NCBI RefSeq assembly: GCF_022843985.1
Contig: NZ_JALHMP010000002.1
Location: 124,001-188,000 of the forward strand
Length of the DNA stretch: 64,000 nucleotides
Reading direction: 5' to 3'
Source: Phreatobacter sp.
GTDB taxonomy: Bacteria; Pseudomonadota; Alphaproteobacteria; Rhizobiales; Phreatobacteraceae
Positions 25,726 through 30,293 of the stretch are shown in pieces. The first letter of the stretch is position 1. Every line of letters begins with the position of its first letter. Below the pieces are notes generated by a model that was not told the origin of the DNA, made no database searches, and saw nothing but the letters and a program-made list of their open reading frames with translations. The position numbers and the translations under genes were made by a program.

Positions 25726-27915
25726 TCAGCCGGCGCGCGCCATCGGCTTGCCGAGATGATCGGCCCGGATGGTGGCGCGGACCTGCGTCCCGGCCCCGGG
25801 CTTGGAGCGGATGGTCAGCGCACCGCCATGCAGGTCGATCAGCTTTTTGACGAGGGCGAGGCCCAGTTCGGCCCCTTCGCCCTCGCCTTCCGCCAGCGGA
25901 TCGAGGGCCTGCGCCAGTTGCCCCGGTGAGACGCCGTCACCGGAATCGACCACGTCGAGCACCAGTTCGCCAGCGGGGCCCTGTTTGACGGAGACATTGA
26001 CGATCCCGCCGCGCGGGGTGGTGGCGATGGCGTTGTTGACGAGTTCGCCCATGATCTTGCGCAGTGCCGCCGCATTGGCGGACATGGTGGAGACTTCCGG
26101 CGTCCAGACCACCCGGAACTTAACGCCCTTGGATTCCGCCCGCGGCCGGCAGAGCAGGTTGACCTCGCCGATGAGCTTCTCGATCGGCGCCTGGTCGCCG
26201 GCCGGCGGCGCCTCGATGGCGGAGGCTTGTGCATAGTCGAGCACGTCGGCAAGACGGCGGGCGAGCCTGGCCGATTCCTCCCGCGCCGCATCGATCAGCG
26301 CATCGATATCGTCCTGGTGGCGGCTCGATGCGGCGCGCCGCGCCATCAGGTGCAGCCGTTCGATCGGTTGGCGGAAGGTCCGGCCGATCAGCCGTACCAG
26401 TCCCGAGCGCACGCCCTTGAGGTTTTCGACGGCGATCAGCGAGCGGGCGACCTGGTCGGTCAGGAAGGCGACCTCGCGCGTCGCCGAATCGAGCTTGTGC
26501 TCGCGCTCCTGGACGTCGCTGGCGAGCCGGGCATTGAGGTCGTTGGCCTGCTCGGCGGCCGCCTCGGCAAGCGAGAGCTTTTCCTTCACGCCCTTGATCT
26601 GCGCCTGGAAGATGTCGACGGCGCGGTTGTATTCGCGGGCGATCTGGCCGAGTTCGCCGTCGGAATCGGCCTCCAGATAGGCGAAGGCGCCGGCATTCAG
26701 GTTGAGGGCGCCGAGCTGGCTCACCAGCATGGCAACGTCCGTCGTCATGGCATGCTCGGTGACGTTCAGGCCGATGCGCTCTTCCTCGCGCCCGACCCTC
26801 AGGCGGATGACAAATTGCAGGCCGAAGGCGGTGGCGCCCATGACCGCCGCTGACCATGCGACGATGGCGAGGAGGCCGATGGCCTGCAGGATCAGGGTCG
26901 GAACCAAGGTTTCGGGCAGGCAGAGGGCCACCGCTAGGACGCCGAGCATGCCCGGAAAGAGATGGGCAGAGGCGATGCCGAGGGCATCGTCGATCTCAAG
27001 CTGCTCGAGCGCGCGCGCGCCCGCGATCGCCAGCGCCGCCCCTGCCGCCCCGAGCGCGATCGCGCCAAGCGGGTGCAGCAGATGGGCCGCCGCCGAGGCC
27101 GCCACGACCCCGGCCAGCGTCGCATGGATGATGTGGACGACGGTAACGCGCGAGGGGCGGATCTGGTTGGCGAGGAAGGTCGCGGTGATCGCCGCGGCAC
27201 CGGCGAGAACCAAATTGATCACGACGGGAGCGATGGCGATGCCGGCGGCCAACGCCTGGCCGATGGCGATGCCGAACCAGCCGAGCCACAGCAGCATCAC
27301 GCCGAGGGCGGCGAAGGGAAAGCTCTGGCTCTGCACCACGAGGCTGCGCCGGGTTCCGTTGAAGCGACCGGTCCGTGCGCCGACGGCATGGGCGGCCACC
27401 AGTGCGGCGGTGCCTCCGGCGACGTGGATGACCCCGCCGCCGGCGAGGTCGATGAAGCCGAGGCCCTTGAGCCAGCCGGGGGTCTCGCCCTGCGCCCAGG
27501 CCCAATGCATGACGAGGGGCAGCACGCCCAGGCTGAACACCGCCACGAGCGCCGCATAGCCGCGCAGCGTCGTGCGTTCTGCCAGCGGTCCGGACAGGAG
27601 CGTCGCCGCGGCGCAGGCGATGGCGAGCGCGAAGACGAGGTCCGAGCCGCCGTCTGAAGGCATGAATGGGCCATTGCCGGCCAGGGGGCCGCCGGCATTC
27701 ATGATGCCATACCCCGCCGCCCAGACGATGAGGACCGTGATGCCGACCTGAACGAGGAGCTTGGCTGCGGCGTTGACGCTGTGCTTGGCGCGCACCAGCC
27801 CGCTTTCCAGCGTGACATGGCCGGCAAGGACGAGGAACACGCAGAGCGCGATGATGACGGGCCAGAGCAGATCTTGCGGCGTCGGAGGCATCATGAAACC
27901 AGTGGCGAGACGCAT
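25726..27915 (-). CDS. Ammonium-transporter-like sensor fused to degenerate histidine kinase
   Basis: A 729-residue two-part protein. Residues about 10-375 form an Amt/Mep/Rh domain of about eleven helices. It keeps the pore histidines (H164 in GVIHVAGG, H318 in SAHLFPG), D156 and W140. Both positions equivalent to the AmtB Phe gate are Ile (I99, I216), and the S219-equivalent is Gln. A coiled linker (about 385-495) leads to a HisKA/HATPase unit. The H-box position, normally SHELRTP, reads GRTFRQP, so Arg512 replaces the phospho-accepting His. The N-box (LVNNAI), G1 (DSGDGV) and a GAELGLAL lid remain. It is probably an ammonium sensor with an ATP-binding pseudokinase output. The start is uncertain: ATG 27915, GTG 27930 or ATG 27894. 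It lies next to a nuclease gene. Confidence 0.88.
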   Translation of the reverse strand: MRLATGFMMPPTPQDLLWPVIIALCVFLVLAGHVTLESGLVRAKHSVNAAAKLLVQVGITVLIVWAAGYGIMNAGGPLAGNGPFMPSDGGSDLVFALAIACAAATLLSGPLAERTTLRGYAALVAVFSLGVLPLVMHWAWAQGETPGWLKGLGFIDLAGGGVIHVAGGTAALVAAHAVGARTGRFNGTRRSLVVQSQSFPFAALGVMLLWLGWFGIAIGQALAAGIAIAPVVINLVLAGAAAITATFLANQIRPSRVTVVHIIHATLAGVVAASAAAHLLHPLGAIALGAAGAALAIAGARALEQLEIDDALGIASAHLFPGMLGVLAVALCLPETLVPTLILQAIGLLAIVAWSAAVMGATAFGLQFVIRLRVGREEERIGLNVTEHAMTTDVAMLVSQLGALNLNAGAFAYLEADSDGELGQIAREYNRAVDIFQAQIKGVKEKLSLAEAAAEQANDLNARLASDVQEREHKLDSATREVAFLTDQVARSLIAVENLKGVRSGLVRLIGRTFRQPIERLHLMARRAASSRHQDDIDALIDAAREESARLARRLADVLDYAQASAIEAPPAGDQAPIEKLIGEVNLLCRPRAESKGVKFRVVWTPEVSTMSANAAALRKIMGELVNNAIATTPRGGIVNVSVKQGPAGELVLDVVDSGDGVSPGQLAQALDPLAEGEGEGAELGLALVKKLIDLHGGALTIRSKPGAGTQVRATIRADHLGKPMARAG

Positions 27916-28003
27916 CGCTCGCCGTCGCACTGTCTGCTATCATGGTTAACGCAAGGTTATCCGACGCCGAAACTGACAGGATCAGAACCGTTTAGCAGCG
28001 GCG

Positions 28004-28546: not shown

Positions 28547-28679
28547 TGCGGGCCCAGGGCGGGGAATCAGGAATGAAGCGGCGTGTTCATGGTTCGTTTA
28601 CCATGGATATCGACCCGCCGTTAATCAACCTCTGCCACATTTCGACCCGAGTGGCGTTGCGTTGGAGAGGTGCCCGGGG

Positions 28680-30293
28680 ATGGGCGTGACGGCGGCAGAC
28701 GGACGGCCGGCCGACCGGCAGGCCGAAAAGGCGCGTGAGCACGCCCAGAGCCGCAAACGCGTCGTCCGTCAGGTGCGCGATGCGCGTGATCGGCTGACCT
28801 CGACCACCGGCACGAAGCGCTCGTTCGAATATGAGTTGATGCGCGTCTTCGCGCAGAACAAGCGTTCGGCGGGCATCGCCGTCGCTCTCATTGCCGTCGC
28901 CACCGGCTGGGTTGCCGGCTGGGCCACCAATCCGGCGCTAGGAGCCGCGGCGGGTCTCGTCATCCTCGTTGCCCATGGCTTCTGCATGCTCATGGCGCGG
29001 TCCTTCCTCAAGGTCGCGCCAGACAAGGCCGATCTCGGATCCTGGCGCCTGCGCTTCGTCATCGCCGAGGTGATGCTCGGACTGGCCTGGGTTCTTGCCT
29101 TCATCGTCGTCATGCGAACCGAGGTCGCCGAGGCGAGCAATTTCCTGCTCGTCGGCATGCTCATCGTCGTCGCCGTCTCGGCGATGATCGGCTCGACCCT
29201 GCCGGCCGCCGTCTTGGCCTCCTCGCTGCCCGTCGCCGGCACGGTGATCGCTTATTTTCTGCTGCTCCACGGCATGCAGGGCGCGGTTCTCGGAGCCATG
29301 GCCCTCGGCACGCTCGTCTTCTTCGCCATCATCTCGGCGCGCCTCTACCAGACCAACCTCGCCACCATCGAGGCGCGGGCCGAGAAGGACGCGCTGATCG
29401 GCGAGTTGGAGACCGCCAAGACGAATTCCGACGAGGCCCGGCGCAATGCCGAGATGGCCAATATCGCCAAGTCGCAGTTCCTTGCCCAGATGAGCCACGA
29501 ACTGCGCACACCACTGAACGCTATCCTCGGCTTCTCGGAGGTGATGAAGGGGGAGATGTTCGGCCCCCACTCCTCCCCTCAATATGCCGAGTATGCCGGC
29601 GACATCCATTCCTCGGGACAGCATCTGCTCTCGCTGATCAACGAGATCCTCGACCTGTCGCGCATCGAGGCGGGCCGCTACGACCTTAACGAGGAGGCCT
29701 TGACGCTCGCCTATGTCGTTGAGGACTGCCATCACCTGCTCAAGGTGCGCGCCAAGAACAAGGGCGTCGCCATCATAGAGCGCTTCGAGACCGACATGCC
29801 GAAGCTCTGGGCGGACGAGCGCTCGATCCGGCAGATCGTGCTCAATCTGATGTCCAACGCTATCAAGTTCACCCCGGTCGGTGGCGAGATCACCCTGAAG
29901 GTCGGCTGGACCGCATCGGGCGGACAGTATATCGCGGTGAAAGACACGGGGCCCGGCATTCCCGAGGACGAGATTCCAATCGTCCTGTCGAATTTCGGCC
30001 AGGGCTCCAATGCGATCAAGAATGCCGAACAGGGCACCGGCCTGGGACTGCCCATCGTCCAGGGCCTGGTCTCCATGCATGGCGGTACCTTCACGCTGAA
30101 GTCGACCGTGCGCATCGGGACCGAGGTGACCGTGACCTTCCCGGCCGAACGCGTGATGGAAGCACTGCCAGCCATCGCCAGCCCGCCCGTGGTCGCTCCC
30201 ATCGACATTCCCATGGCCGAGGAGCCGATGCCCGCCGCCATGGTGCAGAATGTCGGAGCGCTCCGCCGCGCCCTGTTCGGGCCGCGCCGCTGA
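28680..30293 (+). CDS. Membrane sensor histidine kinase (DivJ/PleC/PdhS-like)
   Basis: A 537-residue protein. A basic, cytosolic N-terminus is followed by about six membrane helices (roughly residues 68-230), a helical linker, then a complete kinase. The H-box SQFLAQMSHELRTPLNAILGF is intact, as are the N-box (LNLMSNAIKFTPVGG), G1 (VKDTGPGIPEDE) and G2 (GTGLGLPIVQGLVSMHGG). The H-box neighbourhood (GFSEVMKGEMFGPHSSPQYAEYAGDIHSSGQHLLSLIN) resembles the DivJ/PleC/PdhS group that controls cell-cycle regulator DivK in alphaproteobacteria; that assignment is inferred. No response regulator is adjacent. ATG 28680 has GGAGAGG upstream; TTG 28662 is a less likely start. Confidence 0.9.
   Translation: MGVTAADGRPADRQAEKAREHAQSRKRVVRQVRDARDRLTSTTGTKRSFEYELMRVFAQNKRSAGIAVALIAVATGWVAGWATNPALGAAAGLVILVAHGFCMLMARSFLKVAPDKADLGSWRLRFVIAEVMLGLAWVLAFIVVMRTEVAEASNFLLVGMLIVVAVSAMIGSTLPAAVLASSLPVAGTVIAYFLLLHGMQGAVLGAMALGTLVFFAIISARLYQTNLATIEARAEKDALIGELETAKTNSDEARRNAEMANIAKSQFLAQMSHELRTPLNAILGFSEVMKGEMFGPHSSPQYAEYAGDIHSSGQHLLSLINEILDLSRIEAGRYDLNEEALTLAYVVEDCHHLLKVRAKNKGVAIIERFETDMPKLWADERSIRQIVLNLMSNAIKFTPVGGEITLKVGWTASGGQYIAVKDTGPGIPEDEIPIVLSNFGQGSNAIKNAEQGTGLGLPIVQGLVSMHGGTFTLKSTVRIGTEVTVTFPAERVMEALPAIASPPVVAPIDIPMAEEPMPAAMVQNVGALRRALFGPRR

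Follow-up and report, generated by a model that had tools for sequence, protein, structure and literature searches.

Receptors built on an Amt domain offer a clear example of transporters that have become sensors, and the kinase version that has been studied, Ks-Amt5 of Ca. Kuenenia stuttgartiensis, is active. It is described as binding ammonium without efficient translocation, with a kinase that responds (PMC5764959). Proteins of this type carry an Amt domain N-terminal to a DHp-CA histidine kinase module that has a phospho-accepting histidine followed by an acid. A second point of reference is Caulobacter DivL, a DHp-CA protein without the histidine that is described as binding a phosphorylated regulator at the usual docking face, and in which R553 (at +3) is reported to be required for binding DivK~P (PMC4211667). 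Our literature search found no published Amt fusion lacking the histidine, and no claim is made beyond that search.

An Amt domain fused to a kinase module without the acceptor histidine

The window, by which we mean the whole 64,000-nucleotide stretch of the Phreatobacter sp. contig that was analysed, contains an Amt-kinase fusion gene at 25726..27930 on the reverse strand, with 734 codons counted from the first GTG. Translation probably starts at 27894 or 27891 (Met13 or Met14), a column at which Met is common to all 12 proteins of the genus. An earlier note on this DNA took the ATG at 27915 as the start, and its residue numbers are those used here minus 5. Pfam identifies Ammonium_transp at residues 23–396 (26743..27864, reverse strand, as are all features of the gene) and HATPase_c at 620–723, within a CA domain of residues 619–724 (25759..26076), whereas HisKA gives no match at E 0.001. 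Between these lie a linker after the last Amt helix (residues 397–450; 26581..26742) and DHp-like helices (506–570; 26221..26415) without the phospho-accepting histidine. The linker is HAMP-like by eye only, and Pfam gives no HAMP match there even at E 5; a PAS domain is likewise absent from the Pfam scan. The earlier note's description of an Amt domain joined to a histidine kinase module that lacks its acceptor histidine is thus confirmed by the ORF, the Pfam domains and an Arg at residue 517 in 12/12 genus proteins. Among named records, the closest protein relatives are encoded by Phreatobacter MAGs (96 and 94% identity), followed by a 'Rhizobiales' MAG (86%).

The Amt domain precedes the kinase module (PF00909 and PF02518) and is fused directly to DHp-CA as in Ks-Amt5 (6eu6; PMC5764959), but the phospho-accepting histidine with its acid is absent. 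Ks-Amt5 is described as having an active kinase and an intact Phe gate, and the fusion protein appears to have neither. Ks-Amt5 ranks third among the distinct solved sequences listed as matches to the Amt part (E 2.5e-46). The best solved relative of the Amt part plus linker (residues 22–447) is an 'Ammonium transporter' of 644–661 aa with a C-terminal extension (8qj3/8qpf), of whose chain the alignment covers only residues 9–454.

A closer comparison is offered by 25 intact Amt-histidine kinases of alphaproteobacteria (among L059–L084), which have the same order of Amt, linker and DHp-CA and measure 706–854 aa between stops. They differ from the fusion protein in what they keep: the H box reads SHELRTP in 25/25, the Phe/Phe gate, Ser219, Trp148, Q24, E31, N47, D50 and T109 columns hold their residues in all 25, and the twin pore histidines are present in 25 and 24 (one gap).

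The pore and the ammonium site

The twin pore histidines H169 (27424–27426) and H323 (26962–26964) are retained in the fusion protein together with Asp161 and Trp145. Isoleucine replaces Phe at both columns of the Phe gate (I104, 27619–27621; I221, 27268–27270), and Gln replaces Ser at the Ser219 column (Q225, 27256–27258), all as the earlier note had read them. Across the genus the twin histidines and Asp160 of conducting Amt/AmtB proteins are found in 12/12, as are the Trp212 and E31 columns, and the Trp148 column is Trp in ten and Phe in two. The F107/F215 gate of conducting proteins is lost, the outer column being Ile in five, Leu in six and Val in one, and the inner column Ile in eight, Val in two and Phe in two. 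The Ser219 column is Gln in 11 and Lys in one.

The intramembrane ammonium site of Ks-Amt5 (Q24, E31, N47, D50, T51, T109, T112) is also not preserved as a whole. Q24, N47 and D50 correspond to Leu, Leu and Gln in the fusion protein, and in the genus to Leu (10), Val (1) or Met (1), to Leu (5) or Ala (7), and to Gln (11) or Leu (1), respectively. The T51 column is replaced in 12/12 genus proteins, and in 25/25 intact relatives too; T109 is retained in 10/12 and the T112 column is Ser in 12/12.

AmtB is reported to be inactivated by F215 variants and by the F107A/F215A double mutation, and not by F107A alone (PMC10433425, PMC6856177), and by analogy it is plausible that the pore of the fusion protein is non-conducting. 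The same genome encodes a separate GlnK-AmtB pair, so nitrogen uptake need not depend on the fusion protein. Signal flow could also run in reverse, with the pseudokinase as the input for a phosphorylated regulator or nucleotide and gating a conducting Amt pore, as GlnK acts on AmtB. The twin histidines, Asp161 and Trp218 present in 12/12 would suit such a role, the GlnK-AmtB uptake pair would leave the fusion protein free for control, and DivL is described as a precedent for an output domain turned input sensor (PMC4211667). We nevertheless regard reverse flow as unlikely, given that loss of both Phe-gate residues is reported to inactivate AmtB (PMC6856177), that Gln or Lys occupies the Ser219 column in 12/12, and that a divergent family (f44, below) lacking the twin histidines in all 15 proteins read still keeps the fusion.

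Arginine in the histidine column

Arg517 (26380..26382; Arg512 in the earlier note, which had assigned it to the histidine site of the H box) stands in the phospho-acceptor column in 12/12 genus proteins, and the alignments place no His there. Arg is followed by Thr at +1 in all 12, and the +4 position is Gln in nine, Ala in two and Pro in one. The resulting motif, GRTFR[QAP]P, agrees with SHELRTP at Arg+3 and Pro+5 in 12/12.

Columns were assigned by ungapped profile anchoring, by a sub-threshold HisKA match and by a Pro-anchored reading of the motif; a MAFFT alignment of all sequences together put the intact H box in the wrong place, and global hhalign gave no sensible alignment of the first DHp helix. 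HisKA (PF00512) scores 13.4 bits (E 0.083) against a gathering cut-off of 26.9 bits, with 51 residues (519–569) matched to 51 profile positions (13–63). The match starts two residues past Arg517, and carrying it back without gaps puts Arg517 at profile position 11, which is also the position of Tyr463 in the DivL-type protein of the same genome (both by hand count). When a profile of intact Amt-kinases is instead fitted without gaps over CA and the second DHp helix, Arg513, four residues earlier, becomes the expected column; the loop is shorter in the fusion protein. The exact acceptor column is debatable by four residues, but no such placement yields a histidine in the genus. The nearest His after the column in the genus is His527 (26350..26352; His522 in the earlier note), ten residues on. 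With the relatives described below included, 29/31 proteins read by ungapped profile anchoring have no His at the expected column or up to 12 residues from it, the exceptions being L040 (+3) and L047 (+9); column assignments are less sure in these divergent members than in the genus.

Conservation within Phreatobacter

Each of the 12 Phreatobacter genomes has one orthologue, the other 11 being 60–96% identical to the fusion protein, and a family-level search returned the same 12 genomes. The L013 orthologue (genome G004) is without 11 residues directly before the N box.

Gly516, Arg517, Thr518, Arg520, Pro522 and His527 are invariant in 12/12. The fraction of invariant columns (n=12) is highest in DHp (0.62), followed by the linker (0.56), CA (0.42), Amt (0.36), the DHp-CA connection (0.35) and the coil (0.24). 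Similarly, dN/dS calculated from seven pairs, three of them sharing G000, is 0–0.063 for DHp, 0–0.142 for the linker, 0.073–0.236 for Amt, 0.027–0.251 for CA and 0.035–0.337 for the coil. DHp is therefore the most conserved region and that with the lowest dN/dS despite the loss of the histidine, which argues for a maintained pseudokinase rather than decay; the best-preserved region is the one for which a dead kinase should have no use. A decaying pseudogene or sequencing artefact might be suggested by the L013 protein with its missing residues and by a relative in genome G357 that is split over two frames. This explanation is rejected as extremely improbable on the strength of an open frame with the Arg in 12/12 genus genomes and of dN/dS below 0.34 for all regions and pairs computed.

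In HisKA kinases the acceptor histidine, the acid that follows it and the +4 Thr all have roles in the H-box motif, the +4 position (Thr in the phosphatase motif) serving dephosphorylation, and the second Asn of the N box is a Mg2+ ligand. The first three are absent here, so kinase and phosphatase activity both look lost. At the N box, where N633 (26032–26034) varies within the alignment of 12, the second Asn column reads Asn in six, His in four and Thr in two. The G1 box (DSGxG, including the conserved D662 at 25945–25947) and the Gly-Leu of G2 are retained in the genus, and the F box is LDP in the fusion protein versus EPF in most intact relatives. The earlier note's statement that the N, G1 and G2 boxes persist therefore stands for G1 and the Gly-Leu of G2, but not for the second Asn of the N box. 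Its proposal to look for the Arg and Ile residues in close relatives had a similarly divided outcome, the Arg being found in 12/12 and Ile only in part (outer gate I5 L6 V1; inner gate I8 V2 F2).

Together these motif changes support a catalytically dead kinase module as the predicted state of the protein. Phosphorylation on the conserved His527 could still occur, and a working kinase that uses this or another residue would be consistent with the invariance of His527 in 12/12 and with the retained G1 and Gly-Leu of G2. We consider it improbable, as His527 lies ten residues from the acceptor column, the Mg2+-ligand Asn of the N box varies between Asn, His and Thr, and there is no His at that site in the G104 protein or in six aligned f44 rows.

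Distribution and a graded series

A profile of 17 Amt-pseudokinase fusions (A1) was searched over 397 sampled genomes of the order to which Phreatobacter belongs, and 32 of these contain a match over the full length (E no higher than 2.8e-193, with its end at position 723–730 of the 731-position profile). Below them come the split gene of G357 (4.5e-137) and then other Amt fusions from 7e-108 down. By coded family the full-length matches number 12 in f1 (the genus), one in f11 (plus the split gene), one each in f13 and f27, and 17 in f44; H boxes were read in 31 of the 33 (32 full-length plus the split gene), with G315 and G329 left out. Searching the same 397 genomes with an intact Amt-kinase (L060, 715 aa) found no intact Amt-kinase among the matches listed, to about E 1e-73. 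The best match covers residues 9–405 (391.8 bits), and among the matches listed none passes L060 residue 582, the G1 box of L060 being at 635.

Beyond the order, 30 of 385 genomes in a class sample match the window protein at 1e-45, its own genome included, and the 25 proteins fetched (one per genome, each carrying SHELRTP and the G1 motif) are the intact kinases described above, from other orders of the same class. In a phylum sample of 349 genomes 18 match A1 at 1e-95, with a full-length match only in the genome of the window; the partial matches include three of 741–770 aa. A search for plasmid copies of the divergent type returned three Vibrio records, in which the match is weak and incomplete (25% identity over 71%).

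Other Amt fusions are also present. Amt-GGDEF-EAL fusions recur in the order with open frames of about 1065–1178 aa (L027–L034, L036–L038; by Pfam on L027 and by motif elsewhere), and fusions of Amt to an MCP signalling domain, which recur there as well, measure 816–822 aa (L025 and L048; Pfam on both). A cyanobacterial MAG encodes an Amt-PAS-SpoIIE protein (L006:4779–7388).

The relatives without the histidine look like a graded series. The G104 protein (L039) has an H box without His yet retains all the gate, pore and ammonium-site residues listed for the intact kinases, and the Amt frame of the split G357 gene has, by eye, the same gate and site residues. In Phreatobacter the gate and most of the ammonium site are lost and the twin histidines kept; G214 and G106 likewise have the twin histidines and have lost the gate pair and Ser219. 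A further branch, f44, lacks both pore histidines in 15/15 proteins read (of 17), and its G1 box is DTG-x-A/V with the third Gly missing (six aligned). From G104 and the split G357 gene we infer that the kinase motif was probably lost before the pore. It is possible, and we put it forward tentatively, that this Hyphomicrobiales family gave up catalysis first and its ammonium pore later while keeping the fusion, such that the late members would be transporter-shaped receptors for another ligand that signal by protein binding alone.

The Pro-anchored His column of f44 (15 read) is Glu in eight, Asp in five, Gln in one (L108) and Leu in one (L041). It is thus acidic in 13/15, possibly a fixed phospho-mimic (L041–L046, L104, L108, L110–L116).

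In the Amt tree 19 rows without the His or with a degenerate C-terminus fall on one side of a branch (89/93, not starred). In the HK tree all nine His-less rows that were given (six of the 12 genus proteins, L039, L023 and L040, with L047 and f44 left out) likewise share one side of a branch (92/97, not starred), outside the intact group. Both trees contain long branches, and the placement of long rows in the HK tree is unsure, but taken together they favour a single origin of the His-less group. Descent of the module from intact Amt-kinases found in other orders was considered; the HK tree, with its long branches, does not nest it there. Nor does the HK tree join it to the DivL-type row of its own genome, with the same caution about long rows.

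The neighbouring kinase

An intact membrane histidine kinase (HisKA by Pfam, SHELRTP) is encoded at 28662..30293 on the forward strand, and the earlier note had suggested it as the partner of the receptor. The two genes are side by side in 10/10 extended genus loci, which would suit a heterodimer or phosphorylation partnership. The entire block is syntenic, though, from 3-carboxymuconate cycloisomerase-like and malonyl-CoA synthase-like genes to two genes beyond the kinase, so that adjacency says little. Outside the genus a full-length orthologue of the kinase (E < 1e-100) is present in 20 of 21 receptor-bearing genomes versus 18 of 20 receptor-less ones (picked from the first listed without a receptor match). 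In the 20 non-genus genomes with both genes these are at least 500 kb apart on one contig in 12 and on different contigs in eight. The kinase is distributed like a core kinase of the order, being about equally common without the receptor, and it has its own intact histidine. Co-inheritance was sought and not found, and a specific partnership is accordingly rejected as rather unlikely.

No response regulator was recognised by Pfam in 10 flanking ORFs at five non-genus loci, some of these ORFs probably being antisense. Several features of the loci may be recorded. Directly upstream of the fusion gene, and like it on the reverse strand, lies a Staphylococcal-nuclease-like gene (PF00565; 28004–28546) whose position is syntenic in 10/10 extended genus loci. 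In G010 the neighbouring kinase is split into two overlapping ORFs (L056:7107–8932), and a diguanylate cyclase (GGDEF) gene runs convergently towards the receptor gene in G378 (L041:3130–4716).

A possible docking output

Among solved structures the kinase part matches DivL best by sequence (4q20, E 2e-18), although this match covers the module only from the second DHp helix onward. Apart from itself, the module scores highest within its own genome against a DivL-type protein that has Tyr in the histidine position (30% identical; L128, G000 C30 near 43103). The fusion protein resembles DivL in having a non-His residue at the acceptor site of a DHp-CA module, as recognised by sequence, and an Arg at +3 (Arg520, invariant in 12/12). 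It differs in its Amt rather than PAS input and in the residue at the His site, Arg rather than Tyr; the DivL-type protein of the same genome also has a normal HisKA score (65.4 bits versus 13.4 bits). The +3 Arg, the nearly invariant first DHp helix and DivL as best solved match make docking the best-supported guess for the genus. Outside the genus, however, all 16 Pro-anchored members lack the +3 Arg, and f44 shows no preferential conservation of DHp (8% of columns invariant, versus 15% each for Amt and CA), so the argument for a binding surface covers the genus and not the whole family.

We thus propose, with about an even chance of being right, that the gene encodes a maintained Amt-derived receptor with a pseudokinase whose output is DivL-like docking or allostery. 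The Amt trimer would still sense a ligand, whether ammonium or a different small molecule that enters the altered pore, and the conserved linker would pass the change on to the DHp helices. These would bind a response regulator or an active kinase and alter its availability or activity, as modelled on DivL with DivK~P and CckA. No phosphate would pass through the fusion protein, and the partner is probably encoded elsewhere.

Such a protein would widen the range of bacterial pseudo-histidine kinases, for which DivL has served here as the studied example, to include a membrane receptor based on Amt. The graded series provides natural variants with which sensor and output could be tested separately. 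Conservation of a His-less version in several families of one order suggests that the signal of an Amt receptor may exit without phosphotransfer.
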